DNA from: Corynebacterium ulcerans
Lineage (GTDB): Bacteria > Actinomycetota > Actinomycetes > Mycobacteriales > Mycobacteriaceae
Assembly (NCBI RefSeq): GCF_900187135.1
Contig: NZ_LT906443.1
Location: 1,922,001 to 1,986,000, forward strand
Length of the DNA: 64,000 nucleotides
Direction of reading: 5' to 3'
Below the pieces are notes generated by a model. The model saw only the letters and a list, made by a program, of their open reading frames with translations, was not told where the DNA came from and ran no database searches. A program made the position numbers and the translations under genes. Shown in pieces: positions 42,426 to 63,420 of the stretch. The number at the start of each line of letters is the position of its first letter. Positions within the stretch are counted from its first letter, which is position 1.

Positions 42426-43538
42426 ATGAACTTGCTCGAGGCCCGTATCGATCTGGATGCCATCGCACACAACACGCGTCTGATTAAAGACAAAGCTGCG
42501 GCACAAGGTGCGCAGCTGATGTGCGTGGTAAAAGCCGATGGGTATAACCATGGCGCAGTGGAAGTAGCCACCGTTATGGAAGACAATGGTGCGGATCAGT
42601 TTGGCGTAGCGACCATCAGGGAGGCCCTTGCTTTAAGGGAAGGTGGGATAGAATCGTCGATTCTTTCCTGGATTTGGTCGCCGGAGCAAGACCTTGGGGC
42701 GGCGATTGCTGCAGGAATCGATCTGGCTGCCATCTCGCTTGCGCATGTTAAGGCCTTGGTGCGGGCGTCGGAAAGCTATGGCGAGAAACCAGTGCGCGTC
42801 ACCGTAAAAGTGGATACCGGTCTGCACCGCTCTGGAGTGGATAAGCAGGATTGGGAAGAAGCTTTCTGTTCTTTGCGGGATGCGGAGAATATTCAGGTCA
42901 CAGGCGTGTTTAGCCATTTTTCCAGCGCGGATGAATCGGATTCTTCTGAGACAGAACAACAAGTGGAGGCTTTCCTCGCCGCGATTGAACTTGGGCGCTC
43001 GCTAGGGCTGGAGCTGCCCGTCAATCACATTGCCAATTCTCCGGCGACGCTGAATCGACCAGACTTGTATTTTGATATGGTTCGCCCCGGTCTGGCCCTT
43101 TACGGGCACGAGCCAATTCCTGGTGAAAACCATGGCTTACGTGAGGCAATGTCCTGGGTTGGGCGGGTAACGGTAGTAAAACCGATCGCCAAGGGGGAGG
43201 GGACAAGCTATAACCTCACGTGGCGTGCGGAACAGGACGGGTATCTCTGTGTCGTTCCGGTCGGCTATGCCGATGGTTTGCCACGTTCGGCGCAAGGACA
43301 CTTGGAAGTCACGATTGGTGGCCGGCGCTATCCGCAAGTGGGCCGCGTGTGTATGGATCAGATTGTGGTGAACCTAGGAGAGAATCCCTACGGTGTGGCT
43401 CAAGATGATGAGGCAGTTATCCTCGGCCCCACAGGGATGACGGCAACGGAACTGGCCACGGCTATAGGGACAATTAACTATGAACTTGTTTGCCGACCCT
43501 GCGGTCGCACTGTGCGAGTGTTCGAGCACAGGGACTAG
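42426..43538 (+). CDS. alr: alanine racemase
   Basis: A 370-residue PLP enzyme making D-alanine for peptidoglycan. Lys36 in VVKADGYNHG binds PLP and Tyr262 in GTSYNLTW is the second base; RPGLALYG and GRVCMDQIVVNLG are further signatures. The ATG has no strong Shine-Dalgarno site. One copy of the palindromic repeat lies in frame at 42647-42668, read as IESSILS. In corynebacteria alr commonly precedes tsaE, as here. Confidence 0.95.
   Translation: MNLLEARIDLDAIAHNTRLIKDKAAAQGAQLMCVVKADGYNHGAVEVATVMEDNGADQFGVATIREALALREGGIESSILSWIWSPEQDLGAAIAAGIDLAAISLAHVKALVRASESYGEKPVRVTVKVDTGLHRSGVDKQDWEEAFCSLRDAENIQVTGVFSHFSSADESDSSETEQQVEAFLAAIELGRSLGLELPVNHIANSPATLNRPDLYFDMVRPGLALYGHEPIPGENHGLREAMSWVGRVTVVKPIAKGEGTSYNLTWRAEQDGYLCVVPVGYADGLPRSAQGHLEVTIGGRRYPQVGRVCMDQIVVNLGENPYGVAQDDEAVILGPTGMTATELATAIGTINYELVCRPCGRTVRVFEHRD
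42647..42668. repeat. palindromic repeat copy A, inside alr
   Basis: GATAGAATCG-T-CGATTCTTTCC: the right arm is intact, the left arm has one substitution. It is identical over 22 bases to copy E at the guaB3 stop and shares 19 with copy D. Translated in frame without disrupting alr. Confidence 0.7.
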
Positions 43539-43687
43539 CCCAGCGACTAACGCGGCGGAAACAGTGCAATAAAATTGTGATGATAGCGCTGCAGAATTTT
43601 CCAAAAATCACCCTAAAACTGGGATTGTGAGCAATATAGGATGAAAAACACGTCGGCTTTCCTAGTGTCAGAGGAGACACATTAAGT

Positions 43688-44182
43688 ATGAGAGATTCCT
43701 TCCCCTCCAGCGGCGAGCGTCGTCTTGAACTACCTGCTGACACTCAAGCCCTAGCAGAGCAACTGGGCGCGGCTTTGGAAGCCGGAGACGTGCTTATCTT
43801 GGACGGTCCTCTCGGTGCCGGCAAGACCACCTTCACCCAAGGCCTAGCCAAAGGATTGCAGGTCAAGGGGCGTATTACCTCGCCTACTTTTGTTATCGCG
43901 CGCGAGCATAAGTCGCTTGTGGGCGGACCGGCGCTCATCCATGTTGATGCGTACAGGCTTATCGACGAAACCGCCGGGGCCGCCGATCCTATCGGCGCAT
44001 TGGACTCGCTAGATTTGGAAACAGAACTCGAAGATGCAGTGGTTGTGGCAGAGTGGGGAGGCGAGCTTGTGGAACAGATTTCTGATTCCTACCTGCGGAT
44101 ATCCATCGACCGTACCACCGCGCATCGGGAAAATCCTGAGTCCGAGGCTCGTATCATTCGATGGGAAAAAGTAGTTTCCTAA
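43688..44182 (+). CDS. tsaE: tRNA t6A37 biosynthesis ATPase TsaE
   Basis: A 164-residue P-loop ATPase that works with TsaB and TsaD to form threonylcarbamoyl-adenosine at tRNA position 37. Walker A is GPLGAGKTT with Lys46; other family motifs are [10 protein letters not shown] and HVDAYRL. It follows alr. Its partners tsaB and tsaD lie 3 kb downstream, beyond an unrelated transporter gene. Confidence 0.93.
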
Positions 44183-44722
44183 TCGACTCAACTCGTTGGA
44201 GAATCTACGTATCCCCAGTTCACGGTGGTGTTTCTCTAGATTTGTGGACTTTCATGGCGTTCTCGATGCCGTCTCAGCAAGATGCCCGGCCGCTTGTACG
44301 GGCCACGACATGGTCGGAACAGTTGGCCGCAGCTGACAAAATGATGTGACGGAATTGTGTTTTTAGATAACCCATATAAGAATGTTGTCTGTTCACGAGC
44401 AGAAACCATGCACATGGAAGGAATCCGTGGCCTGACAAGGCATGACGGATCCACGTGAATCCCCGCGCACAAGAACACTGACGTTGCAGGTCAACCTTTT
44501 TATGATTGACCTTTCAGGTAACGGACCTCGCTTTGAGCGACCCCTGAATTTTTGGCTTCCCCATGATCCCTTAAATTCTTGTGCTGCCTGAAAATTATGT
44601 CAGTTGTTGTGAGCGCTGGGATGAGCGTCCGTGGGGAAGCGGTGGGCGTCGTTACGCGTCGATTGCATCTGGCTTCTGAGTGAACATGTCCTTGTACTTT
44701 CAGATTGGAGTCTCGAAGCGCC
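44183..44722. other. intergenic region between tsaE and the AspT-like gene
   Basis: About 540 bases with no convincing gene. It holds a TATAAG box (44374-44379), a small hairpin GGTCAA / TTGACC (44489-44511) and a GTGGGCGTCG element (44641-44650) with an adjacent GCGTCG. The first 170 bases are open in frame with tsaE-adjacent sequence but no domain is seen; they may be decayed coding DNA. Confidence 0.4.
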
Positions 44723-46330
44723 GTGCTCGATTATCTTGCGACGCAACCCCTTATCACTCTGGTCCTCATCCTCGCGTTGGGACTAGCTCTGGGGAAGATC
44801 CGCCTATTCGGCATTTCTCTCGGCGCTGCGGCCGTTCTCTTCGTCGCACTCGCCCTTTCTACTATCCATCCAGCTTTGCAACTGCCCCCGCTGATTTTCC
44901 AGCTGGGGCTTGCGATGTTTGTGTATGCCATCGGCCTGAATGCCGGTGCCGCTTTCTTTGCTGAGTTCCGACACCGCGGTTGGAAACTCACGCTGTACGT
45001 GATCGGTCTTTTGATGGTGCTTATGGGTATCTCTTATGCACTTATCACGACGTTTGATCTTGGCTCGCGCGCCGCGGGCGCAGGTATGTTCGCAGGAGCT
45101 ATTTCGTCTACTCCCGGCATGGCCGCGATGGTGGCGATTCTGGAAGGAATCGACGATTCTCTCGTAGCAGAACCGGTGGTGGGATATTCGTTGGCCTATC
45201 CCGGTGCTGTGATTGGTTCCATCTTGGTTGCTGCGATCGGCGCGCGTGTGTTGAAAATTAACCACGCTAAGGACGCGGAAGAAGAAGGTCTGGTGATGGA
45301 TCCTCTGGAGTGGACTGGTGTGCGCATCGGCCCGCGGATCACAGGAACTATCGCTCAGCTTCCGTCGATAGCTGGTGAAGAGATCATCGCTACCCGTGTG
45401 GTGCATTCTGATAGTTTCCACTCGCTTGCAGCCCCCAGCGACCGGCTTTTTGAGGGCATGGTGCTGGTGATTAACGGCACGACTGAGGCATTAGAGCGGG
45501 CGATCGCCAAGCTAGGCGCGCCAGTGGACGTAAAGATTGAAGACACCGACCTTGAGTATTTGCGGGTGACGGTTTCCAGCAAGCACGTCGTAGGGCGGAA
45601 AATCTCTGATCTGGACACTGTGCGCTCTGGGTTTATCATCGCGCGGTTGCGCCGCGGCGACGCTGAAGTGGTTCCAGAAGCCGACGATGTTTTGCACTAT
45701 TCCGATCGTGTACGCGTGATTGCGCCGAAGAATCGAATGAATGAGGTGCGTCGTTTCCTTGGCGATTCGGAGCGACAGCTTGCCGACGTCGATCTGCTTC
45801 CCTTCGCCATCGGCTTGTCTCTAGGCCTGCTCGTCGGCGCCATTCCGATTCCGCTACCTGGCGGAAACACCTTGTCTTTGGGCTTTGGTGGCGGTCCTAT
45901 TGTGGTCGGTTTGATCCTGGGCGCTGTGCATCGCACAGGTCCTATTCACTGGCCGTTGCCGTATCACGCAAACCGCACAATCAGCACTTTTGGTTTAGCG
46001 ATCTTCCTCGCGGGCGTGGGAACGTCGGCAGGCGTTGGCTTCCGCCATGCTCTGACAGACCCCTCTTCGCTGAAACTTATCGCGGCAGGTTTTGTGGTCA
46101 CGTTAGCTTCTGCGCTGATTACCGCAGCGGTGTGCATGCCGTTGCTCAAGCTGAAGTGGGACGAGGCTATGGGGGTAGCTGCTGGTGTAACCACGAACCC
46201 AGCGATTATTTCTTATCTGAATGGGCAGACCGGCACCGAGTTGGCCACGCGTGGCTATGCCACGGTGTATCCCACGGCTATGATCGGGAAGATCGTGGCC
46301 AGCCAGATGCTTTTGCTTCTGTTGCTCTAG
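44723..46330 (+). CDS. AspT/YidE-type membrane transporter
   Basis: A 535-residue protein with the aspartate:alanine exchanger (AspT/YidE) layout: about five transmembrane helices, two TrkA_C-like cytoplasmic domains (about residues 195-365), then about five more helices. Glycine-rich repeats GMFAGAISSTPGMAAM and AAGVTTNPAIISYL are characteristic. The substrate is unknown; the family includes exchangers of amino or dicarboxylic acids. The GTG at 44723 fits homologous starts (LDYLATQPL); a TTG at 44705 is possible. A weak copy of the palindromic repeat lies at 45142-45163. Confidence 0.85.
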   Translation: MLDYLATQPLITLVLILALGLALGKIRLFGISLGAAAVLFVALALSTIHPALQLPPLIFQLGLAMFVYAIGLNAGAAFFAEFRHRGWKLTLYVIGLLMVLMGISYALITTFDLGSRAAGAGMFAGAISSTPGMAAMVAILEGIDDSLVAEPVVGYSLAYPGAVIGSILVAAIGARVLKINHAKDAEEEGLVMDPLEWTGVRIGPRITGTIAQLPSIAGEEIIATRVVHSDSFHSLAAPSDRLFEGMVLVINGTTEALERAIAKLGAPVDVKIEDTDLEYLRVTVSSKHVVGRKISDLDTVRSGFIIARLRRGDAEVVPEADDVLHYSDRVRVIAPKNRMNEVRRFLGDSERQLADVDLLPFAIGLSLGLLVGAIPIPLPGGNTLSLGFGGGPIVVGLILGAVHRTGPIHWPLPYHANRTISTFGLAIFLAGVGTSAGVGFRHALTDPSSLKLIAAGFVVTLASALITAAVCMPLLKLKWDEAMGVAAGVTTNPAIISYLNGQTGTELATRGYATVYPTAMIGKIVASQMLLLLLL

Positions 46331-46336
46331 ACACAG

Positions 46337-46389
46337 GCTTATCGACGCCGCCCCGCATCCCCTCGCACTAATGAAGGGGATGCGGGGCG
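46337..46389 (+). terminator. dispersed motif plus terminator after the AspT-like gene
   Basis: GCTTATCGACGCC (46337-46349) directly abuts a hairpin in which CCCCGCATCCCCT pairs with AGGGGATGCGGGG (about 46351-46387). The stem is strong; the T run is short (TATTGT). Confidence 0.75.
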
Positions 46390-46518
46390 TATTGTGCACT
46401 CAGAGAAAACTCAGTCGGTGCAGCACTCTATGCTCTTGACGTAGTACGGTTTTAGCTCAAGAGGCTTCCATAACGGTTGACCCACCCCTATTGTGCAATC
46501 CAGGAGCATTACGAGCCC

Positions 46519-46995
46519 ATGAACAAACTTGCCCGTGGCCTACTTGCCGCTATTATTGCTGCCTTTCTCGTTGTTATCATCGCGATGATCGCCATGGCAC
46601 ATGGCCGGAGCGGGACCACCAACAAAGAAGGAGCTTTGGAAAGCACCCTGCGTAAAATTAGTAGTTCCGGTGTCCATGCCACTGCGCTATCGCTCAGCGA
46701 CCTCTATGGTCCGGAGTGGGTAGCAGGCGCGATGATCTGCCCCGGTGCCACTGAGCAGAGCATCGCCCAGAACTACGGCATCGATACCACTGATTTGCAT
46801 CTCAACGGCGGCAAAGTCCCCGAAGACGTGAACTACCTTGTGATGGCAAGCGGTGATGGAGACATCCGCTTTGAGCAGCTCAACCGTAACGAGGTCGACG
46901 TATGTTCCGTTGGCCCGCAGGGTGGTTTTGAGACCTCCGCCCTGATCCCCTTTATCAAGCAAGACGGTGTGTGGAAGATCGGAACCAGCCGCTAA
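46519..46995 (+). CDS. membrane-anchored secreted-domain protein, unknown function
   Basis: A 158-residue protein: short basic N-terminus, one transmembrane helix at about 7-29 (LLAAIIAAFLVVIIAMIAMA), then an extracytoplasmic domain with two cysteines (about residues 75 and 131) that may form a disulfide. No family was recognised. AGGAG lies 12 bases before the ATG. It sits just upstream of tsaB, with the large hairpin at 47077-47122 in between. Confidence 0.7.
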   Translation: MNKLARGLLAAIIAAFLVVIIAMIAMAHGRSGTTNKEGALESTLRKISSSGVHATALSLSDLYGPEWVAGAMICPGATEQSIAQNYGIDTTDLHLNGGKVPEDVNYLVMASGDGDIRFEQLNRNEVDVCSVGPQGGFETSALIPFIKQDGVWKIGTSR

Positions 46996-47076
46996 AAGTG
47001 CCCTCATCCACCGGGGGCTGGTGGCTCAGGGCGGTCCTGATGTTCGGTTTATTCCGAGAAAGAATTGGGTCCTTAT

Positions 47077-47122
47077 AACAAGCACGCTTAAGAAGCGACT
47101 ACTCTTCTTAAGCGTGCTTGTT
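47077..47122 (+). promoter_or_regulatory. perfect 19-bp inverted repeat overlapping the tsaB start
   Basis: AACAAGCACGCTTAAGAAG (47077-47095) is the exact reverse complement of 47104-47122, with an eight-base loop. The tsaB GTG (47114-47116) lies inside the right arm. It could terminate the upstream message, hide the tsaB start in mRNA, or bind a regulator. Confidence 0.75.
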
Positions 47123-47788
47123 CTTGCTTTGGATACCGCCACCCCTGATCTCATAGTCGGGCTCGTCCGAGTTCCTGCTGATGCAGCTACCGGAGCTGTT
47201 ATCGCGCAACGGATTTTTACGGACAGCCGACAGCATAATGAGCTGCTGACTCCTACTGTCGTGGAGATTCTAGAAGAATCAGGGCACAAGTTTGCGGATA
47301 TTGACCGCATCGTGGTCGGCTGCGGGCCAGGGCCCTTCACCGGACTTCGGGTAGGGATGGTGACTGCTGCGGCCTTTGGTGATGCCCTCGGTATTCCTGT
47401 GCATGGTGTCTGCACTCATGATGCGATTGCGGCGCAGTTAGATGGCCAGGTTCTCGTGGCCACGGATGCACGTCGCAAAGAGATCTATTGGTCGCTCTAC
47501 TCCGAGGGCGTTCGGACGATGGGACCAAGCATTGTTTCTCCGACAGAATTGTCGATTCCTTCCAGAATCTCCACAGTTTCGATCCCGGAAAAACTCGGGC
47601 AGCTTCTACCTGAGGCCGTGTCGAATGTGCCACAGGTAAATATGCGCCCCCTGCCGGAATACCTTGTCGCTGTAGCCGATTTTTCGGAGACGCCTGAGCC
47701 TTTGGAACCGCTGTATTTGCGTCGTCCTGATGCGAAAGAACCAGCGCCAAAGCCGAGGTCTTCTGCGATCCCGGAAGTAGAGCTCTAG
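47114..47788 (+). CDS. tsaB: tRNA t6A37 biosynthesis protein TsaB
   Basis: A 224-residue ASKHA-fold protein that pairs with TsaD in the threonylcarbamoyl transferase complex. Family motifs are LALDTATPDLIVGL at the start, DSRQHNELLTP, and GCGPGPFTGLRVGM. GTG 47114 matches the family N-terminus; earlier in-frame starts lack homology. There is no obvious Shine-Dalgarno site because the start lies in the 19-bp inverted repeat. A weak palindromic repeat copy lies at 47545-47567. rimI follows without a gap. Confidence 0.9.
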   Translation: MLVLALDTATPDLIVGLVRVPADAATGAVIAQRIFTDSRQHNELLTPTVVEILEESGHKFADIDRIVVGCGPGPFTGLRVGMVTAAAFGDALGIPVHGVCTHDAIAAQLDGQVLVATDARRKEIYWSLYSEGVRTMGPSIVSPTELSIPSRISTVSIPEKLGQLLPEAVSNVPQVNMRPLPEYLVAVADFSETPEPLEPLYLRRPDAKEPAPKPRSSAIPEVEL

Positions 47789-48280
47789 ATGTTTCTCCGA
47801 GAATTAACTGCCGCCGATGCACCACGATGTGCGGAATTAGAGACGCTGCTTTTTGCGGAGGAAAACCCATGGTCGGTAGAGGACTTGCGAGGAGCAATGA
47901 ACCATCCGCACACGCTGTATATTGCGGTCGTGGATTCTCTTGATGATGGCCAGATTCTGGGATATGCGGGATTGGCGATGCTGGGACCAGCTCATGACCC
48001 AGAGTTTGAGATCCATACCATCGGGGTCGATCCTGAGTTTCAGCGTCGGGGTGTGGCTCGTTTGATGATGGACAACATGATGTTTGTGGCGGATCGCACT
48101 GCGGGGCCGGTGTTTCTAGAGGTACGGACAACCAACGAGCCCGCTATACGCTTGTATGAGTCGTATGGTTTTGAGCGCCAAGGGGTCCGGAAAAACTACT
48201 ATCAGCCCTCAGGTGCTGATGCTTATGTGATGGTGCGGATGCCATCGGCTGTGGAAAGTAATGAAGAGAGTGAAAAATAA
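47789..48280 (+). CDS. rimI: ribosomal-protein-alanine N-acetyltransferase (GNAT)
   Basis: A 163-residue GNAT acetyltransferase. The acetyl-CoA loop is visible as [14 protein letters not shown] (Q/RxxGxA) near residue 80, and the C-terminal fold ends [16 protein letters not shown]. The family acetylates the N-terminal alanine of S18 and other targets. It starts directly after the tsaB stop and ends one base before tsaD, giving the compact tsaB-rimI-tsaD operon usual in actinobacteria. Confidence 0.9.
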
Positions 48281-48281
48281 C

Positions 48282-49337
48282 ATGATTGTCCTTGGCATCG
48301 AATCCTCGTGCGACGAGACTGGCGTGGGCATTATTGAGCTTTCGGCTGATGGAAGTATGCGGATCCTCGCTGACGCAGTGGCCTCTTCCATGGAAGAGCA
48401 CGCGCGCTTTGGCGGCGTGGTCCCCGAGATTGCGTCGAGGGCGCACCTTGAGGCGATGGTGCCGGTGATGCGCCGGGCATTGGATGAGGCGGGCGTGGAT
48501 AAGCCTGATGCGGTGGCTGCGACCGTGGGGCCTGGACTTGCCGGTGCTTTGCTGGTGGGAGCTTCCGCAGCCAAAGCCTATGCAGCGGCGTGGGACGTAC
48601 CTTTTTATGGTGTGAATCACCTGGGTGGGCATGTTGCAGTGGCCAACCTGGAGGGGGAAGAGCTACCTCATGCCATCGCACTTTTGGTGTCCGGTGGGCA
48701 TTCGCAATTGTTGGAAGTCCAGGCTGTAGGCAAGCCAATGAAAGAGCTGGGATCTACGCTTGACGACGCCGCCGGCGAAGCCTACGACAAAGTTGCACGG
48801 CTGCTCGGCCTGGGATACCCAGGAGGTCCGGTGATCGATAAGCTTGCCGCGCGAGGAAACCGCAAAGCTATCCGCTTCCCTCGGGGGCTTTCGCGTGCCG
48901 ACGATCTGCGCGGTGAGCATCGCTACAATTTTTCCTTCTCTGGCCTAAAAACATCCGTGGCGCGCTACGTGGAAAAGGCGGAACGCGAGCAGACTGTGAT
49001 CAGCGTTGAAGACGTGTGTGCTTCTTTCCAGGAAGCTGTCTGTGACGTACTGACGCACAAGGCGATTCTTGCCTGCCAAGACACTGGTGCCAAGGTCTTG
49101 CTTCTGGGCGGTGGAGTAGCGGCTAATTCACGGCTTAGGGAGTTAGCGGCGGCACGCTGTCAGACGGCAGGTATCGAGCTTCGTGTCCCGCGCTTCAAGC
49201 TGTGCACGGACAACGGGGTCATGATCGCTGCCGTGGCGGCTCAGCTCATCCACGAGGGCGCACCGCAATCGGGGCTGAACATTGGCACTGATACCTCGTT
49301 GGAAGTGGAAATTCCGCTCGTGTACGCAGATATGTAA
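48282..49337 (+). CDS. tsaD: tRNA N6-threonylcarbamoyltransferase TsaD
   Basis: A 351-residue enzyme that transfers the threonylcarbamoyl group to A37 of tRNAs reading ANN codons. It begins [17 protein letters not shown]; the metal-binding histidines are in NHLGGH near residue 110, and the C-terminal [13 protein letters not shown] is conserved. ATG 48282 is chosen because it matches homologues and GAAGAGAG precedes it. Last gene of the tsaB-rimI-tsaD unit. Confidence 0.95.
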
Positions 49338-49367
49338 AACAGGGGAGTTCGCTAGCAGACAACTTTG

Positions 49368-49401
49368 TTGAGTGCTGGCACTTGCACGGGTAGAGTGCCA
49401 G
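49368..49401 (+). promoter_or_regulatory. groES promoter overlapped by a CIRCE element
   Basis: CTGGCACTT (49375-49383), nine bases, GAGTGCCAG (49393-49401) matches the HrcA-binding CIRCE pattern TTAGCACTC-N9-GAGTGCTAA. It overlaps a promoter with -35 TTGAGT (49368-49373), a 17-base spacer and -10 TAGAGT (49391-49396). Heat-inducible repression by HrcA is the expected control. Confidence 0.8.
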
Positions 49402-49498
49402 TAGGTTGTACTCACACAGTTGTTCACCCGCGACGACGGCTGTGCTGGAATTCCCGCAACCGGCACAAAGAGAAACTTCATTGTACGGAAGGTATATC

Positions 49499-49795: not shown

Positions 49796-51427
<1,632 letters not shown>

Positions 51428-51437
51428 ATAAACGGTG

Positions 51438-51477: not shown

Positions 51478-51522
51478 CTGTTTAGAACACCCTGGTGCCG
51501 GCGCTTGGGGACACCTGCTCTT

Positions 51523-51804: not shown

Positions 51805-52142
51805 ATGAAGGGTGATTCCTTATATCAGTGGCATGTCACAGACGTGCCAGTGGGCTGGGGCAAACTCTAAATATGAGGGTGCGTTCTTGATTGTGAAGGC
51901 ACGAAGTAAACAAGGCATGGACGAAGAGGGAAGAGGGAGGAAATTCTGGAAAGAATCGTCGATTCTTTCCAGAATCCTCGCTAAGGCTAAAGTTGATAAC
52001 TGAGGCTATGTCCTAGGTATTATTTATTTTTTGTATCGTTAGATAAACGCGGTGATTCGTACCTGAATTAGAAGCGCCGCCAGTAACCGGGCTTAGAAGG
52101 CTCGGTTTCTGCACATGAGTGATGGAAGAGAAAGGGCTAGCA
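51805..52142. other. intergenic region upstream of sigD, with palindromic repeat
   Basis: This gap between divergent whcB and sigD holds palindromic repeat copy D and presumably both promoters. Reading through the repeat gives the same KESSILS peptide as coding copies, but the frame (51812-52003) has no start or family support. Nothing else was identified. Confidence 0.5.
51943..51975. repeat. palindromic repeat copy D, intergenic
   Basis: Arms ATTCTGGAAAGAATCG (51943-51958) and its exact reverse complement (51960-51975) flank a single T: a perfect 33-bp palindrome. No T run, so not an obvious terminator. Its core matches copies A, E, F and G. Confidence 0.9.
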
Positions 52143-52703: not shown

Positions 52704-52705
52704 GG

Positions 52706-54168: not shown

Positions 54169-55689
<1,521 letters not shown>

Positions 55690-55715
55690 TAAAACCGGGA
55701 AGGTTCCTTTTCATC

Positions 55716-56858
55716 ATGCGTGATTACGTCGAAATCGGAATTGGCCGTGAGGCTCGCCGCACCTACGACCTAGATGACATCGCGGTCGTACCAGCGCGTC
55801 GCACACGGTCCTCCAAAGATGTGGATACTACGTGGCATATCGACGCCTACACCTTCAAAGTGCCATTCATGTCCCATCCCACCGATGCGCTGGCAAGTCC
55901 CGAATTTGTCATCGAGATGGACAAACAAGGTGGACTCGGCGTAATCAACGCGGAAGGTCTGTGGGGCCGTCATGCGGACTTGGATGCGGCAATCACCGAG
56001 ATCGTGGAGGCACATGGCGAAGATGAGCTTGATCTAGCATCGCTTGGTCGAGCCACCAAGAAACTGCAGGAACTGCATGCCGCAGAACTGGATAAAGATC
56101 TGCTCACCGAGCGTATTGCCCAGGTGCGCGATTCGGGAGCCGTTGTGGCAGTACGCGTATCGCCACAACGGTGTCGCGAGCTTGCGCCTTTGCTCATCAA
56201 GGCTGGAGCTGATCTGCTCATCATCCAAGGCACCATCATTTCTGCTGAATACGTAGAGACAAGTGGCGAGCCACTCAACCTCAAAGAATTCATCGGATCG
56301 ATTGATGTGCCAGTAATCGCTGGCGGCGTCAGCGATTACACCACTGCACTTCACCTCATGCGCGCTGGTGCAGTCGGCATTATCGCTGGCGGTGGATCAA
56401 ACACCAACGACCTAGCCTTAGGTATCGACGACTCCTTGGCCACCGCTATCGCAGACGTGGCTGCAGCGCGTCGCGACTACCTTGACGAGACCGGAGGACG
56501 TTATGTCCACGTGATCGCTGATGGAAACATCAATAACTCGGGGCAAGCCGTCAAAGCCATCGCATGTGGCGCAGACGCAGTCATCCTTGGAGAACCCCTC
56601 GCCAGGGCCACCGAAGCTGCAGGAAAAGGCCTCTTCTGGCCATCGGCTGCAGCACATCCGCGCTTCCCACGAGGCATTGTGGGAACCGTTGGGATTATTC
56701 CAACTACGGAGCGCGTCAGCCTCGAGGTCGTTTTGCACGGGCCGTCTGCAAACGTGTTCGGCGAAGAAAACTTTGTTGGCGGACTCAAACGTGCTCTGGC
56801 TAAGTGCGGTTACACGGATCTGAAGAGCTTCCAAAAAGTTGAGCTGACGATCCGATAG
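55716..56858 (+). CDS. guaB3: GuaB3-family IMP dehydrogenase-related protein
   Basis: A 380-residue barrel protein of the GuaB3 family. It lacks the CBS domains, and at the loop where IMPDH has its catalytic cysteine it reads GGGSNTND, so it is not expected to act as a normal IMPDH. The family is found beside guaB2 in actinobacteria; cyanobacterial and streptomycete relatives have been linked to GMP reductase activity. AAGGTTCC precedes the ATG at moderate strength. The stop codon lies inside palindromic repeat copy E. Confidence 0.88.
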   Translation: MRDYVEIGIGREARRTYDLDDIAVVPARRTRSSKDVDTTWHIDAYTFKVPFMSHPTDALASPEFVIEMDKQGGLGVINAEGLWGRHADLDAAITEIVEAHGEDELDLASLGRATKKLQELHAAELDKDLLTERIAQVRDSGAVVAVRVSPQRCRELAPLLIKAGADLLIIQGTIISAEYVETSGEPLNLKEFIGSIDVPVIAGGVSDYTTALHLMRAGAVGIIAGGGSNTNDLALGIDDSLATAIADVAAARRDYLDETGGRYVHVIADGNINNSGQAVKAIACGADAVILGEPLARATEAAGKGLFWPSAAAHPRFPRGIVGTVGIIPTTERVSLEVVLHGPSANVFGEENFVGGLKRALAKCGYTDLKSFQKVELTIR

Positions 56859-56875
56859 AATCGTCGATTCTTTCC
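56854..56875. repeat. palindromic repeat copy E, spanning the guaB3 stop
   Basis: The same 22 bases as copy A (GATAGAATCG-T-CGATTCTTTCC). The guaB3 TAG occupies 56856-56858 within the left arm, so the repeat appears to define the C-terminus of the protein. Confidence 0.75.
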
Positions 56876-56880
56876 CACAC

Positions 56881-56915
56881 AACGCCGGTATCCCTGTCAT
56901 AGGGGCCGGCGTTTT
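56881..56915 (+). terminator. terminator after guaB3
   Basis: AACGCCGG and CCGGCGTT flank an inner pairing (TATCCCT / AGGGG) and are followed by TTTTT. It begins six bases after repeat copy E. Confidence 0.8.
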
Positions 56916-57020
56916 TGTGATGGCGTCGATAAGCAATAAACCTAGAAACCGTAGCGTAGTGATTTATTGCACAGTGAGAGCTATTGGTCTTGGGCCTTCC
57001 TAGGCGTAGAACTGTCTTCC

Positions 57021-58880
57021 ATGACGCATCTGGTCAAGAGGGATCGCCGGTTACAGGAGTCCCCAGCCACCAAGCACCCTTGGTGGAAGGTCATGTGCCT
57101 GACTGGTGTGGACTACTATTCCACGCTCGGTTACCAGCCCGGCATCGCAGTTGTTGCTGCAGGAGCGTTGGCGCCTATCGCCACGCTGGTACTTGTTGCT
57201 GTGACGATGCTGGGCGCAGTGCCTGTCTATCGGCGTATTGCGCGCGAGTCGCCAGACGGGCAGGGGTCCATCGCAGTGCTATCCCACTTTGTACATGGTT
57301 GGAAAGGGAAGTTTCTGATCCTTGTCCTGCTCGGGTTTGCTGCAACGGACTTCACCATCACCATGACGCTGTCGGCTTCAGATGCAACGGCGCACCTACT
57401 GCATACGACGTCCAGCCCATGGACGATTCCGCTGACGATCGCTATGTTGGCGTCACTGGCGTTGGTGTTCTACCGCGGATTCACTGAGGCCATCAGGGTA
57501 TCTGTGGTATTAGTCAGCGTCTATTTGGTTCTGACCGCGATTATCGTGACCACAGGGCTCATCCGAATCGGCCTGCGCCCCTCTATGGTGGGGGACTGGT
57601 GGCATTCTGTGATCGTCGCGCACCCACATCCGCTGGGCATCATCCTCGTGGCGCTGCTGGTTTTCCCCAAACTCGCATTGGGCCTCTCCGGCTTTGAAAC
57701 GGGAGTGGCGGTGATACCTCAGATCGACGGCGGCACGGAAGGCCGCACGGGAAAGGTGCGCGCCGGGCGGAAGCTATTGCTGGTGGCTGCATCTATCATG
57801 AGCGTGTTCCTCATAGCCTCGTCGATCGTGGTCACCCTGCTCGTACCTGCAGATTCGCTTATCGACGGCGGCCCCGCCAACGGACGTGCCCTCGCATACC
57901 TCGCCCACGAGCAGTTTGGTCCGTTCTTTGGTGGAGCTTATGACCTGGTCACTGTGGTGATCCTCTGGTTCGCTGGTGCTTCAGCCATGGCCGGCATGAT
58001 TAACCTGATTCCGCGCTATCTACCGCGTTATGGCATGGCCCCAGCGTGGGTGGCTAAGACGCGCCCGATGGTGAAAGTGGTAGCTGTTATTACTTTTGTC
58101 GTAGCCATAATTTTTAGGGCAAACGTGGATAAGCAATCTGGGGCCTATGCCACGGGTGTGCTGGTTCTTTTGCTCTCCGGGGCGTTGGCAGTCACGCTTT
58201 CAGCCGCTGTGGACGTTCGGCGCAAGCACGGTCGGTATTGGAAGCCGCTCGCTTACGGCCTGGTGACGTTGGTTTTGGGCTACACCGCAATCACCAACAT
58301 GGTCGAGCGACCCGAGGGACTCAAAGTGGCTTTTTGGTTTATCGTGGCGATCATCGTGGTATCCATGGTTTCCCGCGTAGGTAGGGCCTTTGAACTGCGG
58401 AGTCCCATTATTTCTTATGACGAGAAGGCGCTGCGCATCATCGGTTCCACCTGTGGCCCCTTTGCAATCATTGCGCATTCCATAGGCTCCGAAGACCCGG
58501 CTGAGTATGAGCGTAAAGAACATGAAGTTCGGGCCCGCAATCACATTCCAGATTCTCAGCCCGTCATCTTTTTAGAGGTAGGGATACGAGACGCAAGCGA
58601 ATTTAGCTCAGCGCTCGTGGTCACCGGGCACGTGTGTGGCGATCATACGATCCTTCGCACCGAATCCGCGGCCATTCCTAATGCGATTGCGGCGCTCGCA
58701 GTGGATATGCACCACCGCGGGAACGTGGATGTGTACTTTTCTTGGTCACCAGGTTCTCCTGTGCGTGATATGTTGCGCTATCTGGCTATCGGTAAAGGGC
58801 AAAATGCAGTTGTAGTCCACGAGATAATTCGGCGCGCTAATAAGGACGGAAAACCGCATCCGCATGTCCACTTGGGATAA
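57021..58880 (+). CDS. APC-superfamily amino acid permease-like protein
   Basis: A 619-residue membrane protein with about twelve transmembrane segments, then a soluble C-terminal domain of about 150 residues (from about 470: YDEKALRIIGSTCGPFAIIAHSIG). The N-terminal region (GVDYYSTLGYQPGIAV) resembles APC family transporters. The substrate is unknown. The ATG at 57021 fits the start of recognisable sequence but has no clear binding site; a TTG at 56967 is possible. The motif GCTTATCGACGGC occurs in frame at 57857, and another copy follows the stop. Confidence 0.75.
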   Translation: MTHLVKRDRRLQESPATKHPWWKVMCLTGVDYYSTLGYQPGIAVVAAGALAPIATLVLVAVTMLGAVPVYRRIARESPDGQGSIAVLSHFVHGWKGKFLILVLLGFAATDFTITMTLSASDATAHLLHTTSSPWTIPLTIAMLASLALVFYRGFTEAIRVSVVLVSVYLVLTAIIVTTGLIRIGLRPSMVGDWWHSVIVAHPHPLGIILVALLVFPKLALGLSGFETGVAVIPQIDGGTEGRTGKVRAGRKLLLVAASIMSVFLIASSIVVTLLVPADSLIDGGPANGRALAYLAHEQFGPFFGGAYDLVTVVILWFAGASAMAGMINLIPRYLPRYGMAPAWVAKTRPMVKVVAVITFVVAIIFRANVDKQSGAYATGVLVLLLSGALAVTLSAAVDVRRKHGRYWKPLAYGLVTLVLGYTAITNMVERPEGLKVAFWFIVAIIVVSMVSRVGRAFELRSPIISYDEKALRIIGSTCGPFAIIAHSIGSEDPAEYERKEHEVRARNHIPDSQPVIFLEVGIRDASEFSSALVVTGHVCGDHTILRTESAAIPNAIAALAVDMHHRGNVDVYFSWSPGSPVRDMLRYLAIGKGQNAVVVHEIIRRANKDGKPHPHVHLG

Positions 58881-58947
58881 AGCTTCTCGACGCCCCTCGC
58901 TAAGCCCCGGTATCTAGGGGCCTAGCCCATGCGGTAGTGTATGCAGC

Positions 58948-60522
58948 GTGACACAGCAAACTCCGCAAAAACATAATCCGGTACTAGTCGTCGACTTCGG
59001 CGCTCAGTATGCGCAGCTCATTGCCCGGCGCGTCCGTGAAGCAAAGATCTATTCGGAAGTGGTTCCGCATACCGCGACCGTTGAAGAAATTAAAGCCAAA
59101 AATCCTGCGGCGCTAGTCTTGTCGGGTGGCCCCTCGTCTGTGTATGAGACCGGGGCACCGTCTCTTGACCCAGCACTGCTGGAACTAGGAATCCCTGTCT
59201 TCGGTATTTGCTATGGATTCCAGGCGATGACCCATGCACTTGGGGGAACTGTAGCCAACACAGGGAACCGCGAATACGGACGCACCGAACTGGTTGTTGA
59301 GGGCGGCGTACTGCATGAAGGCCTAGAAAAGACCCATAAAGTCTGGATGAGCCACGGCGATGCTGTGTCTCAAGCTCCGGAAGGATTCGTCGTTTCTGCC
59401 CACTCGGAGGGCGCTCCGGTGGCGGCGTTTGAGTGCCTCGAAAAGCGCATGGCAGGCGTGCAGTATCATCCAGAGGTGCTGCACTCACCGCATGGTCAAG
59501 AGGTTCTGGTTCGATTCCTCACAGAGATCGCAGGGTTGGAACAGAATTGGACTGCGGCAAATATCGCTGAAGAGCTTATCCAGGCGGTTCGGGATCAGGT
59601 TGGTCCTGAGGGACGCGCGATTTGTGGTCTTTCCGGTGGCGTCGATTCTGCGGTGGCGGGAGCGTTGGTACAGCGCGCTATTGGCGACCGTCTCACGTGT
59701 GTCTTTGTGGATCACGGTCTGCTGCGCGCTGGCGAGCGTGAGCAGGTACAGAAGGACTTTGTGGCGTCGACAGGCGCTAAGCTCGTGACAGTTGACGAGC
59801 GAGCTGCCTTCCTGAATAAGTTGGCTGGTGTCACTGAGCCAGAGGCAAAGCGCAAAGCCATCGGGGCGGAATTTATCCGTTCTTTTGAGCGCGCTGTCGC
59901 CGACGTGTTGGAAAGTGCTCCGGGAGCGAGCGTAGATTTCCTCGTCCAAGGCACCTTGTACCCGGATGTTGTCGAATCTGGTGGTGGTGCAGGCACCGCG
60001 AATATCAAGAGCCACCACAACGTTGGCGGACTCCCTGATGATGTGGAGTTTAAGCTCGTTGAGCCGCTGCGTCTGCTCTTCAAAGACGAAGTTCGTGCTG
60101 TTGGACGAGAGCTAGGACTGCCCGAGGAGATCGTGAACCGCCAGCCCTTCCCAGGGCCAGGTCTGGGCATCCGCATTATCGGCGAGGTCACTGAGGATCG
60201 TCTAGAGACCTTGCGCGCCGCCGATCTTATCGCCCGCACTGAGCTCACAGCCGCTGGCTTGGACGACCAGATCTGGCAGTGCCCTGTGGTGTTGCTTGCC
60301 GACGTCCGATCCGTGGGCGTTCAAGGCGATGGCCGCACGTACGGTCACCCGATTGTGCTGCGTCCGGTTTCCTCCGAAGACGCGATGACTGCGGACTGGA
60401 CACGCTTGCCTTATGAGGTCTTGGAGAAGATCTCTACGCGCATCACCAACGAGGTACCAGACGTCAACCGCGTGGTTCTCGACTGCACTTCCAAGCCCCC
60501 AGGAACCATCGAGTGGGAGTAA
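58948..60522 (+). CDS. guaA: GMP synthase (glutamine-hydrolysing)
   Basis: A 524-residue enzyme making GMP from XMP, ATP and glutamine. The N-terminal glutaminase domain has the nucleophile Cys88 ([10 protein letters not shown]) and the YHPEV motif with catalytic His and Glu; the ATP-pyrophosphatase domain has [10 protein letters not shown]; the C-terminal dimerisation domain ends [13 protein letters not shown]. The GTG start is near the motif-containing spacer. With guaB2 it completes guanine nucleotide synthesis. Confidence 0.96.
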
Positions 60523-60532
60523 ACGCTGATTA

Positions 60533-60560
60533 AATGGCTACCGAGTTGTCGGTAGCCATT
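60533..60560 (+). terminator. hairpin after guaA
   Basis: AATGGCTACCGA pairs perfectly with TCGGTAGCCATT around a four-base GTTG loop, ten bases after the stop. The downstream T run is weak. Confidence 0.7.
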
Positions 60561-60650
60561 GGCGTTTCATGAGTGTGTTTCGTGAATGCAACTGCGCATA
60601 ATTGGGTCTAGACTGCTGGTTGCAGTAAACGCACGAGGAAGGATACTGCG

Positions 60651-61100
60651 ATGATTATTGATACCTACTGGGGAAGATTTTTCGGCGATTCTGCTGATAG
60701 TCGCACTCTGACGCAGTACCTTGATTCCAAAAGTGAGGTAGTCACGATTGAGGAAATCTTTCAAGATTTCCACCTTGACGAACTTCACGGAAACTATACC
60801 GAGGCTTCCCTCGATGGAGCTGGTTTTCACTTCGATTCAGCATTCCAAGTGGTTCTCGATCTCTCGGTGTTGATCCTAGAATCCAAGAAAGTGGGGCGCT
60901 TTAATCTCGCGCGTATCGGCGGTCCCCACGATCGTATGATGCGCATCGACGCCACCTCCGAGCGCATCCTCCCCCTAGCCATAGCCCTCAAACATTATGC
61001 GCTCAGCCCCGAGGACTATCGCCTTGAGCATATCGACGAAGCCGATTGGTACGAGCTCGGAAACCTCTGCGAAGAGGTCCGAGCCCAACTCGATTCTTAA
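60651..61100 (+). CDS. conserved-looking cytoplasmic protein, unknown function
   Basis: A 149-residue acidic protein with no signal peptide or transmembrane segment and no recognised motif. It begins MIIDTYWGRFFGDSADSRTL and has a mixed alpha/beta pattern. GAGGAAGGA lies about eight bases before the ATG. It is convergent with the PspC-like gene and overlaps it by four bases. Small acidic single-domain proteins of this sort include immunity proteins, but nothing here proves that. Confidence 0.6.
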   Translation: MIIDTYWGRFFGDSADSRTLTQYLDSKSEVVTIEEIFQDFHLDELHGNYTEASLDGAGFHFDSAFQVVLDLSVLILESKKVGRFNLARIGGPHDRMMRIDATSERILPLAIALKHYALSPEDYRLEHIDEADWYELGNLCEEVRAQLDS

Positions 61101-62155
61101 CTTGCCGGTTGCACCGTGACATCGCCAATGCCACTGGTTACCCGCAGCTTCAACGTTTCTCCCTGAGCGTCAGGGTTATGGACACCCTCGGTGCAGTGCT
61201 TGTCACCGATGCGCGTCTCACAGCTGACCTCCACCCGTACCTTTTGCGGCAATCGGACGTGCACGTCTCCGACCTTTGTCTGAACCTGAACTTGACGAGG
61301 CTTATCCAAAGAATCAATACGGCTAAGGTCGAGATTAATATCGCCGGCTCGGAGAGTATAGGAGTCTGCAAGCTGTGTGGCGGTGGCGGGCCGTGCGTCG
61401 ATGTCTCCGAAAGAATCGTCGATTCCTTCCCGAGGACCAAGCAACGCAGCGATGAGGATGCCAACGATGACAATGCCGCTAGCGAACCACATCAGTCCTC
61501 TGATCCACGGGTTACGGCGTTTCTTAGGCTGTGGAGCTGGGCCAGGTTCCGGAAGATCCCAGGCAAAAGGTGCGGTTCCTAGTGGATCCCATGCGGGTGG
61601 CTGTTGTGCGGTAAACGGTGCATCGAATCCATCCACCGGACTATAAGAGCTCAGATCTACGTGCGGACCTGAAGTATCTGTGTGCTGTTGCAACAATCCT
61701 GCTGGGGGCTCAGGGGTGCGTTGGTGCAACAGATACCACGCGAGGAAGAACGCGATGAATGCGCCAAAATGACCTGCCCCAAACAGCGCTGTATCTGAGT
61801 TTCCGGATGAAAAAACTATCACAAAGAGCACCAGGATTAAGACCCATCCGGTGTTTCGTTCGCTACGCAAGATTTTGTTGTCTTTGATGGAGGCGTCTTG
61901 ACGCAACAAATCTACAGGTGCTTTCACAAGCGAATACTTTGGCATGAGCAGCCAAGCGATGAGATATAAGGAAATACCGCCGCCCAAAAAACCGAAGATA
62001 ACAAAAAAGATGCGTACTAAGGTTGGGTCGATTTGGTAACGAACTCCAATGCCCTCGCAGACACCTAAGAGCTTCGCCTCGCTGCCTTGATCGCGAGGTA
62101 AACGTACTGGGCGAGTGTCCCACATCTGATGAAGTGTCTCGTTCATGCTTTCCAT
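61097..62155 (-). CDS. PspC-domain membrane protein with LiaF-like C-terminal domain
   Basis: A 352-residue protein. A PspC domain (about residues 25-80, GVCEGIGVRYQIDPTLVRIFFVIFG) with a hydrophobic helix is followed by further hydrophobic segments, a Pro-rich loop, another transmembrane helix (about 235-255), and a C-terminal DUF2154/LiaF-type domain (GDINLDLSRIDS, KVGDVHVRLP). It probably senses envelope stress together with the divergent kinase. ATG 62155 is kept because a TATAAG box lies only nine bases upstream, consistent with a leaderless start; ATG 62146 is the alternative. Repeat copy F lies inside. Confidence 0.8.
   Translation of the reverse strand: MESMNETLHQMWDTRPVRLPRDQGSEAKLLGVCEGIGVRYQIDPTLVRIFFVIFGFLGGGISLYLIAWLLMPKYSLVKAPVDLLRQDASIKDNKILRSERNTGWVLILVLFVIVFSSGNSDTALFGAGHFGAFIAFFLAWYLLHQRTPEPPAGLLQQHTDTSGPHVDLSSYSPVDGFDAPFTAQQPPAWDPLGTAPFAWDLPEPGPAPQPKKRRNPWIRGLMWFASGIVIVGILIAALLGPREGIDDSFGDIDARPATATQLADSYTLRAGDINLDLSRIDSLDKPRQVQVQTKVGDVHVRLPQKVRVEVSCETRIGDKHCTEGVHNPDAQGETLKLRVTSGIGDVTVQPAS
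61409..61430. repeat. palindromic repeat copy F, inside the PspC-like gene
   Basis: GAAAGAATCG-T-CGATTCCTTCC on the plus strand, with one change in the right arm. On the coding minus strand it is in frame and reads EGIDDSFG, just after a transmembrane helix. Confidence 0.6.
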
Positions 62156-62259
62156 TGTGAACGCTTATACAGAAACGCACATCGGGGAAGACCCTGAATC
62201 ATCAAAAATCAGGGTCTCACCTGATGGAGAATCAGGGACGCTATGGGAAGATAACATGC

Positions 62260-63420
62260 ATGCAACAGGCCTATCCTCCTTTCTATCGAGACCGCGATAA
62301 CAACGTCATCGGAGGCGTCGCTGCAGGGCTAGCCAGGTATTTTGGGGTTAGCGTGGTAAAAGTTCGGATTGGACTTGCCGTATTAGCTTTATGCAATGGG
62401 GTAGGGGTGATGGCTTATACAGCTTTGTGGATCTTCACGACGTCGAAGTCTTTCCGGAAAGAATCGACGATTCTTTCCGGAAAGACTTCTGAAACATCGG
62501 CGTGGACACAATCAACAAACTGGTTTCTAGCGGCTGCAGCATTAGCCGGAGCGTTTGGAATCTCGGGATTTTTTGGGAAAGCGGCAGGTATTTCTTCGGG
62601 GGCTGTGGCGGCTTTTGCGATCATTGGTGTTGGCGTGTTGTTGGCATGGCTCGCTTATGACCGGATTAATTCTGATTATGCGGTGACCATGATTGGGGCG
62701 GGGGCGTCGTTAGTTTTTGTGGGGGTGTTGTTTGCGGCTGTCCAGTGGCAGGATCGTCAGTTTTTTGGCTCTGCTGTGATTACGGTGGTTCTCACTTTGG
62801 CTGGTGTGGCGGCGTTAGTAGTGCCTTTTGTGGTGCGGATGTTGCAGAGGCTGAGCGTAGAGCGGGCGGAAAAGGCTGCGGCTGATGAGCGGGCGGAGAT
62901 TGCGGCGAGAATTCACGATTCGGTGCTGCAGACTTTGGCACTTATCCAGAAGCGTTCGGAGGATCCGGAGGTGCGTCGATTAGCTAGGGGGCAGGAGAGG
63001 GAATTACGGCAGTGGTTGTTTTCCCCACGGGAGGATGCCACGGTTTTTAAGGCGATCGAGCGGGCTTGCGGCGAGGTAGAAGACATGTTTGCCATAACAA
63101 TTTCGCCTGTGATCGTGGGGGAGGATCGGCCATTGGACGCATCGACGAAGTCCGCGGTGTTGGCTGCGCGTGAGGCGATGGTGAATGCGGCGAAGCATTC
63201 GGGGGAGAGCTCTGCGGATGTGTATGCGGAGTGTTTTGAGGAGCTGGCTATTTTTGTGCGGGATCGTGGGCCGGGGTTTGACCTTGAGGCTGTGGATGAG
63301 AGCCGGCATGGCGTTCGCGATTCTATCCTGGGGCGTGTGAAGCGCGCTGGCGGTGACGTGCAGATTCATAATTCGTCGGGAACTGAGGTAGCCATTCGCA
63401 TGCCTTTCAAGAAACAATAG
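62260..63420 (+). CDS. PspC-domain sensor histidine kinase (LiaS/DesK type)
   Basis: A 386-residue kinase. An N-terminal PspC domain (residues about 10-65, GGVAAGLARYFGVSVVKVRIGLAV) is followed by four or so transmembrane helices, a HisKA_3 dimerisation domain with His219 in RIHDSVLQTL, and a HATPase domain (REAMVNAAKHS, DRGPGFD). A perfect 45-bp palindrome at 62445-62489 is translated in frame between the PspC domain and the next helix. ATG 62260 has GGGAAG ten bases upstream; ATG 62224 is also possible. Its regulator follows five bases after the stop. Confidence 0.85.
   Translation: MQQAYPPFYRDRDNNVIGGVAAGLARYFGVSVVKVRIGLAVLALCNGVGVMAYTALWIFTTSKSFRKESTILSGKTSETSAWTQSTNWFLAAAALAGAFGISGFFGKAAGISSGAVAAFAIIGVGVLLAWLAYDRINSDYAVTMIGAGASLVFVGVLFAAVQWQDRQFFGSAVITVVLTLAGVAALVVPFVVRMLQRLSVERAEKAAADERAEIAARIHDSVLQTLALIQKRSEDPEVRRLARGQERELRQWLFSPREDATVFKAIERACGEVEDMFAITISPVIVGEDRPLDASTKSAVLAAREAMVNAAKHSGESSADVYAECFEELAIFVRDRGPGFDLEAVDESRHGVRDSILGRVKRAGGDVQIHNSSGTEVAIRMPFKKQ
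62445..62489. repeat. palindromic repeat copy G, perfect 45-bp palindrome
   Basis: Two 22-base arms (62445-62466 and 62468-62489), exact reverse complements, around a single A at 62467; the inner core is GGAAAGAATCG-A-CGATTCTTTCC. It lies inside the histidine kinase gene and encodes SFRKESTILSGKTS in frame. Confidence 0.95.

Follow-up and report, generated by a model that had tools for sequence, protein, structure and literature searches.

Scattered palindromes in Corynebacterium ulcerans mostly form a dense field of conserved short sites with an HNH-type gene at its centre

The short palindromes scattered over genes and intergenic DNA of Corynebacterium ulcerans mostly form a dense and conserved field of short sites that is centred on an HNH-type gene, and are mostly not inserted mobile elements. 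We lean towards the view that this is the recognition-site field of a cis-acting HNH nuclease encoded in the middle of the cluster and one case of a wider Corynebacterium arrangement, in which many HNH genes of this kind would each be surrounded by a private motif field with a density falling over 50–100 kb.

Within the window, i.e., the whole stretch of 64,000 nucleotides that was analysed, the palindrome family is real. Allowing up to two mismatches, GAATCGNCGATTC matches 14 times, whereas 100 dinucleotide shuffles gave 2.9 matches on average and 7 at most; six cores are perfect (at 42651, 45147, 51953, 56858, 61413 and 62461). The family, here family A, has the 23-mer consensus GGAAAGAATCGWCGATTCTTTCC (Table 1). 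An earlier note had described palindromes in genes and intergenic DNA that had in some sense spread, and this was borne out: its five good copies were all recovered to within 1–2 bases, and the copies at 42646 and 56853 do share 22 identical bases. Regarding two look-alikes that it had ranked as weaker, this holds for the one at 47545 with one core mismatch, but not for the one at 45142, the core of which is perfect. The poor match seen near 26056–26078 is the site at 26058; it has three mismatches to the 23-mer, compared to five and four in the orthologous DNA of G166 and G174, and is thus probably an outlying family member. The proposed peptide KES(T/S)ILS is encoded by some coding copies, but others read as ERIDDS/GIDDS or otherwise, showing that more than one reading frame is used.

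Table 1. Family A sites and look-alikes in the window (positions in the window; alr, AspT-like, tsaB-like, guaB3 and guaA were named by eye)
Position	Location	Site	Reading	Comparison with other genomes
26058..26080	inside ORF	outlying degenerate site, 3 mismatches to 23-mer		G166 5, G174 4 mismatches; gap-free vs G214
42646..42668	inside alr	GGATAGAATCGTCGATTCTTTCC	GIESSILS	identical in G166 and G174; gap-free vs G120
45142..45164	inside AspT-like antiporter gene	perfect 13-bp core	LEGIDDSLV	gap-free vs G120, G205, G214
47541..47563	inside tsaB-like ORF	degenerate, 4 mismatches (core: 1)		ungapped across site, gaps beside, vs outgroups
51943..51975	intergenic	consensus 23-mer, 16-base perfect arms
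56853..56875	covering guaB3 stop codon			identical in G166 and G174
59379..59401	inside guaA	weak look-alike, 5 mismatches; may be chance		same sequence in G000, G166, G174, where the gene is conserved anyway
61408..61430	inside PspC-like gene	perfect core
62445..62489	inside PspC/histidine kinase gene	consensus site, 22-base perfect arms	RKESTILS

The distribution over the chromosome is strongly local. The genome of the window (G000) contains 21 perfect cores, of which 19 are located inside 93 kb, and the genome-wide count that the earlier note had proposed as a check gave 31 matches to the 23-mer with up to three mismatches (reversed control: 0), 29 of them within G000:C1:1900001-2100000. 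Among 242 Corynebacterium genomes a family A cluster was found in only four (reversed-pattern control 0), all of which are related and carry it at the same chromosomal place, and none was found in the other 238. At the centre a gene on the minus strand (G000:C1:1999720-2000817), 13.7 kb beyond the right end of the window and between folD and metX, encodes an HNH endonuclease-like protein of 366 aa. In G000, 18 of the 21 exact cores of the whole genome are found within 50 kb of this gene, and in the four cluster genomes the median site offset from the HNH midpoint is -0.8, -1.8, -1.3 and -7.3 kb. The off-centre median by 7–8 kb is that of G077, for which 35 of 43 matches fell in the stretch read, reaching 43 kb from the HNH gene in one direction and about 97 kb in the opposite one.

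The assignment of the protein draws on profile scores close to the cutoff on either side and on CxxC, DH and HH residues that were seen by eye in the HNH proteins. With the Pfam profile HNH (PF01844, cutoff 21.4) the protein of the folD locus in G000 scores 19.0 bits, the protein at 793 kb in G000 23.9 and the clpP-tig protein of G165 21.0 bits. The group shares HNH matches with the 13E12/DUF222 HNH proteins of Actinobacteria. For DUF222/13E12 (PF02720, cutoff 24.4) P0003, which is close to the G120 protein, reaches 21.8 and the G000 793-kb protein 14.1 bits, whereas the profile search gave no match in the G000 folD-locus protein; no motif field accompanies 13E12/DUF222 proteins among the matches listed. 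The AlphaFold model of P0001 (mean pLDDT 54) is too poor for use.

Moreover, the arrangement recurs with other motifs. Independent clusters of an unrelated palindrome, CCTAACTTT-N5-AAAGTTAGG, are found in three other species (G095, G007 and G165), and a different HNH gene lies close to their centre, with median offsets of -0.4, +8.5 and -0.8 kb, respectively; like that of G077 for family A, the G007 median is off-centre. In exact whole-genome counts, the fraction of copies within 50 kb of an HNH gene is 23/41 (G000), 26/38 (G166), 23/35 (G077) and 14/18 (G053) for CCGTGGGGAAA, 22/22 (G007), 15/18 (G165) and 11/14 (G095) for GCTCGCATTGA, 26/31 for CCCTCCTAGA in G077 and 20/33 for CTGTGCAGAAA in G066. 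A uniform distribution would place 0.6 to 2.7 copies there in the first eight sets (family A in G000, four sets of CCGTGGGGAAA, three of GCTCGCATTGA; G007 computed on its contig alone). Averaged over nine whole-genome sets, the motif reaches 5.2 copies per 10 kb at distances of up to 10 kb from the HNH gene and drops to 0.26 at 50–100 kb. Separate fields with different motifs occur in the same genome, three in G077 and two plus a weak third in G000, and HNH is the sole gene family common to all 11 centres compared, two groups of it being linked by weak matches.

The search for motifs beyond families A and C used windows with an HNH gene at the centre, which biases towards finding them there. 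In a dyad scan, from which a genome-wide 11-mer was masked, 18 of 32 HNH windows passed. Two of these are doubtful. The motif of G136 (CATCGGCAAGC) may be a variant form of the genome-wide 11-mer, and in G095 at 1713 kb the top dyad is a CRISPR-like array, the field being based on a separate analysis. The other 14 windows scored 10 or less (G000 1131 kb, G077 1755 kb, G214 C1, G078, G053 1593 kb, G066 1236 kb, G147, G250, G120, G007 420 kb and G095 304 kb, as well as G214 C6, G205 folD and G214 folD, for which other scans suggested a motif). Of the 13 controls two are field flanks (G205 550 kb, score 15.4; G007 616 kb, 7.8). In some fields the enriched unit is the half-site word and not the full palindrome; a 9/11-mer scan found such fields, missed by the palindromic-word scan, in G095 (1713 kb), G007 (675 kb), G077 (868 kb) and G066 (1463 kb), its controls scoring up to 22.6, from a genome-wide 11-mer and in G205. 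The longest perfect palindromes in G120, G205 and G214 revealed no common family, and a permissive neighbour count on near-palindromes was swamped by sequence bias and was dropped. No motif field was seen at the HNH gene of G120, which occupies the same folD locus, nor at that of G250.

Furthermore, the motif appears to follow the protein. The motifs CTCCTAG, CTTCTAG and CTCCTAACTTT fall on one supported HNH clade (96/93), and the three loci have no common gene above 45% identity in 40-kb windows; similar motifs were thus shown, as judged from sequence, to accompany related HNH proteins at non-syntenic loci. The fit to the tree is imperfect, since CC(G/A)TGGGGAA accompanies proteins whose grouping in one clade is not demonstrated, and support for the GAATCG group is only 90/76. 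A prediction for G174 that was fixed in advance proved right for the field position and failed for the decay: the CCGTGGGGAAA field there has an apparently broken HNH gene, yet the genome contains 46 copies, i.e., no decay on loss is seen. The HNH genes might alternatively be passengers that settle where motif fields pre-exist for another reason, which is compatible with co-location alone. This is quite improbable, as one and the same folD locus pairs GAATCG sites with one HNH sequence and CGATGGT sites with another of 47% identity to it, and as related proteins with similar motifs recur at loci that have no other gene above 45% identity in common.

These observations suggest that the central HNH protein itself very likely binds the motif, palindromes being occupied by a dimer with a half-site of about 11 bp. 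It might nick or cut at the sites and thereby favour recombination or gene conversion in the DNA around its own gene, a step that we propose only tentatively. If new sites were favoured only when linked to the HNH gene, site density would decay with distance, and the benefit of the sites would probably be self-promoting recombination. It is conceivable, if less than likely, that the HNH genes of this kind are cis-acting and probably selfish elements of a new class. Each would seed and maintain a private 50–100 kb site field through point substitutions in ordinary genes, and its own region would thereby preferentially be recombined or copied into other cells, while several specificities share one genome. 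Free-standing HNH homing endonucleases of phages are thought to promote the inheritance of their own region by cutting nearby DNA, at one or few sites in DNA without the endonuclease gene; here, in contrast, the gene-carrying DNA itself is full of sites. DNA uptake sequences of Neisseria and Pasteurellaceae are likewise short motifs in coding and intergenic DNA, but occur genome-wide, whereas the HNH motif fields are local to one gene. Inverted pairs of uptake sequences between genes form terminator-like hairpins, according to PMC2267715.

Alternatively, the HNH-like protein might effectively be a structural DNA-binding protein whose sites mark a chromosomal domain, as matS does with MatP (a 13-bp motif, GTGACRNYGTCAC, in the ter region) and parS with ParB (a conserved motif near oriC, with parB often near parS). 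Palindromic, conserved sites that are tolerated in coding and intergenic positions and peak in a domain of about 100 kb would suit such an organiser, and the likeness extends to the concentration of short sites in one chromosomal domain. However, the family A motif differs from both matS and parS, the protein is nuclease-like with HNH residues, and several private motifs per genome together with the lack of a family A cluster in most genomes are more in line with a private module than with a general chromosome function, making this explanation unlikely. Also improbable is a mutational footprint without benefit, left by a nuclease acting mostly near its own gene, with repair at near-cognate half-sites copying or completing palindromes. 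Several intergenic copies have perfect arms well past the 23-mer, with outer sequences varying between copies and species, and the kinase-gene copy at 62445-62489 keeps its 22-base arms in G166 through paired changes in both arms, as expected from hairpin-templated repair. Against this, half-site words are enriched in some fields in place of full palindromes, and conservation of the sites between species exceeds that of their flanks (94.5% versus 83.5% identity), most G000 sites having a counterpart in the same place in G166 and in G174.

The earlier note had interpreted the palindromes as a mobile insertion of the RPE, REP or MITE type, for which in-frame copies in unrelated genes speak, and had suggested orthologue alignments as a check. 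Six coding copies, in alr, the AspT-like antiporter gene, pyruvate carboxylase and three further genes (all named by eye), align ungapped to at least one species without sites, which indicates that residues were replaced and not added; as G077 has its own sites at some coding copies and offers no site-free comparator there, the gap-free total is six. By these alignments the six copies were shown to be born by substitution, and insertion is rejected for them. Another seven coding copies, including 62445-62489, fall in linkers that align poorly or with gaps, where insertion may still have occurred. RPE, REP and MITE copies are insertions that leave gaps in orthologues and are dispersed over the genome, whereas the copies here are concentrated in about 110 kb around an HNH-like gene and no shared flanking sequence was seen by eye outside the palindrome, so that the mobile element is a very remote explanation. 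The probable C. diphtheriae counterpart of family A, matched by description and not by sequence, is the 32-bp repeat Cod-2, which in the available excerpt of PMC2267715 has 43(39) tabulated copies, is classed as genic, is described as giving different peptides depending on the frame and is likened to Rickettsia elements; that excerpt mentions no clustering at one locus, HNH gene or other motifs. A plain regulon is rejected because the sites are local and inside unrelated genes. RNA hairpins such as terminators, for which long arms in some intergenic copies might speak, can practically be dismissed and are rejected as a general explanation, as 20 of 33 copies lie wholly within ORFs, inspection by eye showed no T run following the copies, and terminators would not account for the clustering on one locus.

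If the fields have a structural role, they would act as markers of chromosome domains, several private codes being used in one genome; we know of no other example. To our knowledge, this widespread HNH protein group has no settled function. If its members recognise the motifs, the group would gain a testable target that can be read from sequence alone, and a new form of local host-gene change around a resident nuclease gene would become visible, in which amino acids in alr, pyruvate carboxylase and other proteins would differ because of the chromosomal location of their genes. The motif–protein pairs are a natural set for learning DNA specificity.

The GAATCG-type palindromes (family A) form a repeat family well above chance. 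The window (G000:C1:1922001-1986000) contains six perfect copies of the core GAATCGNCGATTC, and allowing up to two mismatches raises the count to 14, compared to 2.9 copies expected; 19 of the 21 perfect cores in the C. ulcerans genome (G000; 2,453,761 bp, one contig) lie within 1,964,651-2,057,638. From 200 kb read around this cluster the 23-mer consensus GGAAAGAATCGWCGATTCTTTCC was obtained, which with up to four mismatches yields 33 copies in that stretch (1,948,058-2,074,139) and with up to three mismatches 31 copies in the whole of G000, compared to none for the reversed control, so that the palindrome family proposed in the earlier note is borne out genome-wide. In the survey by Cozzuto et al., 2008 (PMC2267715), a repeat termed Cod-2 is listed for C. 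diphtheriae; it is probably the same family. Gene names in and around the window were assigned by eye.

Among 242 Corynebacterium genomes searched with up to three mismatches, the 23-mer is clustered only in G000 (31), in G077, presumably C. diphtheriae (43), in G166 (25) and in C. silvaticum, G174 (29); single matches occur in G118 and G211, and 236 genomes yield none. The stretches read around the cluster hold 29, 35, 24 and 26 of these matches, respectively, and the four clusters are syntenic. G166 is probably C. pseudotuberculosis, judged from the close resemblance of its HNH protein to P0001, a protein named for that species. Family A sites are conserved beyond their flanks: with one genome per species, site identity to G000 is 94.5% in G166 (83.5% in flanks; three of 33 sites unaligned) and 95.1% in G174 (88.3% in flanks; one of 33 unaligned), and as sites were chosen by their match in G000, the bias acts against this result.

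The earlier note had also read the palindromes as insertions of a mobile element. Twenty of the 33 copies lie wholly within open reading frames, in more than one frame. Six of these align without gaps to at least one of G120, G205 and G214, which lack family A sites, and for these the insertion claim fails; it is left untouched at seven others situated in gapped or poorly aligned linkers. One further site is itself gap-free against the same genomes with gaps adjoining, two are gap-free against G077 alone and are uninformative on origin because G077 carries sites there itself, and four have no usable alignment. Taken together, these alignments suggest that the copies are mostly not insertions. 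Arms reach 13-16 bases or more in some intergenic copies, with outer parts that vary among copies and species; the coding copy in the histidine kinase gene has 22-base arms, and in G166, where both arms have changed, this length is retained. In C. silvaticum this PspC/histidine kinase gene is in pieces, and its copy of the palindrome is mostly absent.

Near the middle of the cluster, outside the window, an HNH-like gene lies between folD and metX. It is kept in all four cluster species, with 89, 90 and 52-53% identity to the G000 protein, and the median site distance from it is 0.8 kb in G000, 1.8 kb in G166 and 1.3 kb in G174; the 7.3 kb measured in G077 comes from a stretch that extends unequally to the two sides of the gene. 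Homologues are present in 222 of the 242 genomes, and thus presence alone does not account for the palindromes. These proteins may belong to the DUF222/13E12 group, to which they have weak profile matches. In the accessible parts of the open-licence literature on HNH/13E12/DUF222 proteins, homing and palindromes, including PMC10589994, no description of HNH-centred motif fields was found.

At the same folD locus, G214 carries a gene 47% identical, with a different palindromic family, CGATGGT-N9-ACCATCG, nearby (five exact copies compared to 0.0005 expected; 77 with up to three mismatches in 120 kb, the expectation applying to exact copies only). The unrelated palindrome CCTAACTTT-N5-AAAGTTAGG (apparently family C) was met in G095, G007 and then G165 while other HNH genes were inspected; its centre lay away from those first inspected, and the central gene, in the clpP-tig interval, is another HNH gene. 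All motifs except families A and C were looked for around HNH genes. In 40-kb windows, the dyad score exceeded 10 in 18 of 32 HNH windows (two doubtful), which were hand-picked from homologue match lists and included seven known or suspected positives, compared to one of 13 controls, a window on the flank of a probable HNH field in G205; palindromic words with at least three copies were absent from all 14 control windows. The 11-mer CGTCG(A/G)NAAGC is strongly over-represented in HNH windows as well as controls of several species (G095, G007, G205, G147, G250 and several control windows); it looks genome-wide and unconnected with HNH fields.

Motif fields and related features (fields are named by the position of their HNH locus)
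Feature	Genome and position	Remark
folD-locus HNH-like gene	G000:C1:1999720-2000817, minus strand	366 aa; 13.7 kb right of the window
Coding copies, gap-free	G000: 1948058, 1964646, 1967142, 2007683, 2027115, 2031704	against G120, G205 or G214
Coding copy, gaps adjoining	G000: 1969541	against G120, G205 or G214
Coding copies, gap-free	G000: 1995157, 1996963	against G077 alone
Coding copies in linkers	G000: 1983408, 1984456, 1987626, 1990397, 2003916, 2020199, 2022101	gapped or poorly aligned
Coding copies, no usable alignment	G000: 2001131, 2014663, 2035256, 2074139	
Kinase copy	window 62445-62489	
Kinase gene fragments	G174:C6:644063-644948	
Stray 23-mer	G000:C1:873805	perfect core at 873,810; inside 793-kb CCGTGGGGAAA field; matches copy at G174:C1:128441, other strand
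Stray 23-mer	G000:C1:1473245	perfect core at 1,473,250; far from main cluster, like 873805
CTTCTAGATATATATCTAGAAG	G095 111 kb, G165 108 kb	
CC(G/A)TGGGGAAA	G000 793 kb, G077 787 kb, G053 1249 kb, G214 C6	weaker in G214 C6
CCCTCCTAGAG	G077 868 kb	
CTCTCCTAG-like words	G000 2366 kb	weaker; 40-kb window scan
CCCTTGAAGAG	G214 C26	
CCTGTGCAGAAA	G066 1463 kb	
GCTCGCATTGA	G095 1713 kb, G007 675 kb	
HNH fragment, CCGTGGGGAAA field	G174:C1:209603-210109	gene looks broken; field persists
CTATACGTA, CTAGTGGTA, CGTCATTAC	G205:C1:551882-669901	partly overlapping, as in CTATACGTAATGACG; around HNH gene at 610 kb; probable further field
CRISPR-like array	G095:C1:1724307-~1725840	61-bp period, repeat TCCCCGC-N4-GCGGGGA; ~10 kb from HNH gene

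The field motifs are local, as exact searches of whole genomes gave 41, 35, 38 and 18 copies of CCGTGGGGAAA in G000, G077, G166 and G053 and three in G066, which has no such field; 22, 18 and 14 of GCTCGCATTGA in G007, G165 and G095 and two in G000; 31 of CCCTCCTAGA in G077, one in G000, two in G066 and none in G214; and 33 of CTGTGCAGAAA in G066, three in G000 and one in G214. Over nine sets, density per 10 kb is 3.0-6.5 (mean 5.2) up to 10 kb from the HNH midpoint, 0.3-2.7 (1.3) at 10-25 kb, 0.4-1.6 (1.1) at 25-50 kb and 0-0.6 (0.26) at 50-100 kb. Orientation is unbiased, with 103 motifs towards the HNH gene and 88 away in eight sets, a count that excludes one match at 75 kb and those farther away than about 100 kb. 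G000 has two clear fields (~793 and ~2000 kb) and the weaker one at 2366 kb. For G174, it was predicted before the search that a CCGTGGGGAAA field would be centred on the HNH fragment and possibly decayed; the position was as predicted (of the 46 copies, 12 lie within 10 kb and 31 within 100 kb), while the decay was not seen, the field being rich.

HNH is the only gene family that all 11 centres compared have in common within 6 kb, in the form of two groups connected by weak matches; other recurrent neighbours are ABC ATPases at some centres and the folD neighbours where the locus is identical. Among 32 HNH proteins placed in a maximum-likelihood tree, the motifs CTCCTAG, CTTCTAG and CTCCTAACTTT belong to one supported clade (96/93), on the other branch GCTCGCATTGA sits on a supported pair (100/99) and GAATCG on a group with 90/76, and CC(G/A)TGGGGAA is scattered over unresolved rows. 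No gene above 45% identity is common to the 40-kb windows of the three CTxCTA-clade loci, nor to those of three CC(G/A)TGGGGAA loci (G000 793 kb, G053 1249 kb, G214 C6), and hence similarity of motif goes with relatedness of the protein and not with the place.

In the fields, half-sites are 11 bp, the palindromes of families A and C have one central base, strand preference is lacking, any gene is tolerated, sites are conserved and density decays with distance from the gene. This anatomy fits a protein that recognizes the sites as a dimer and acts in cis. The HNH protein is the putative dimeric binder of the local motif, and its HNH residues suggest nicking or cutting. A benefit confined to linked DNA, e.g., by promoting recombination of the neighbourhood, would account for sites building up nearby only; alternatively or in addition, a scarce protein might act preferentially near its own gene.
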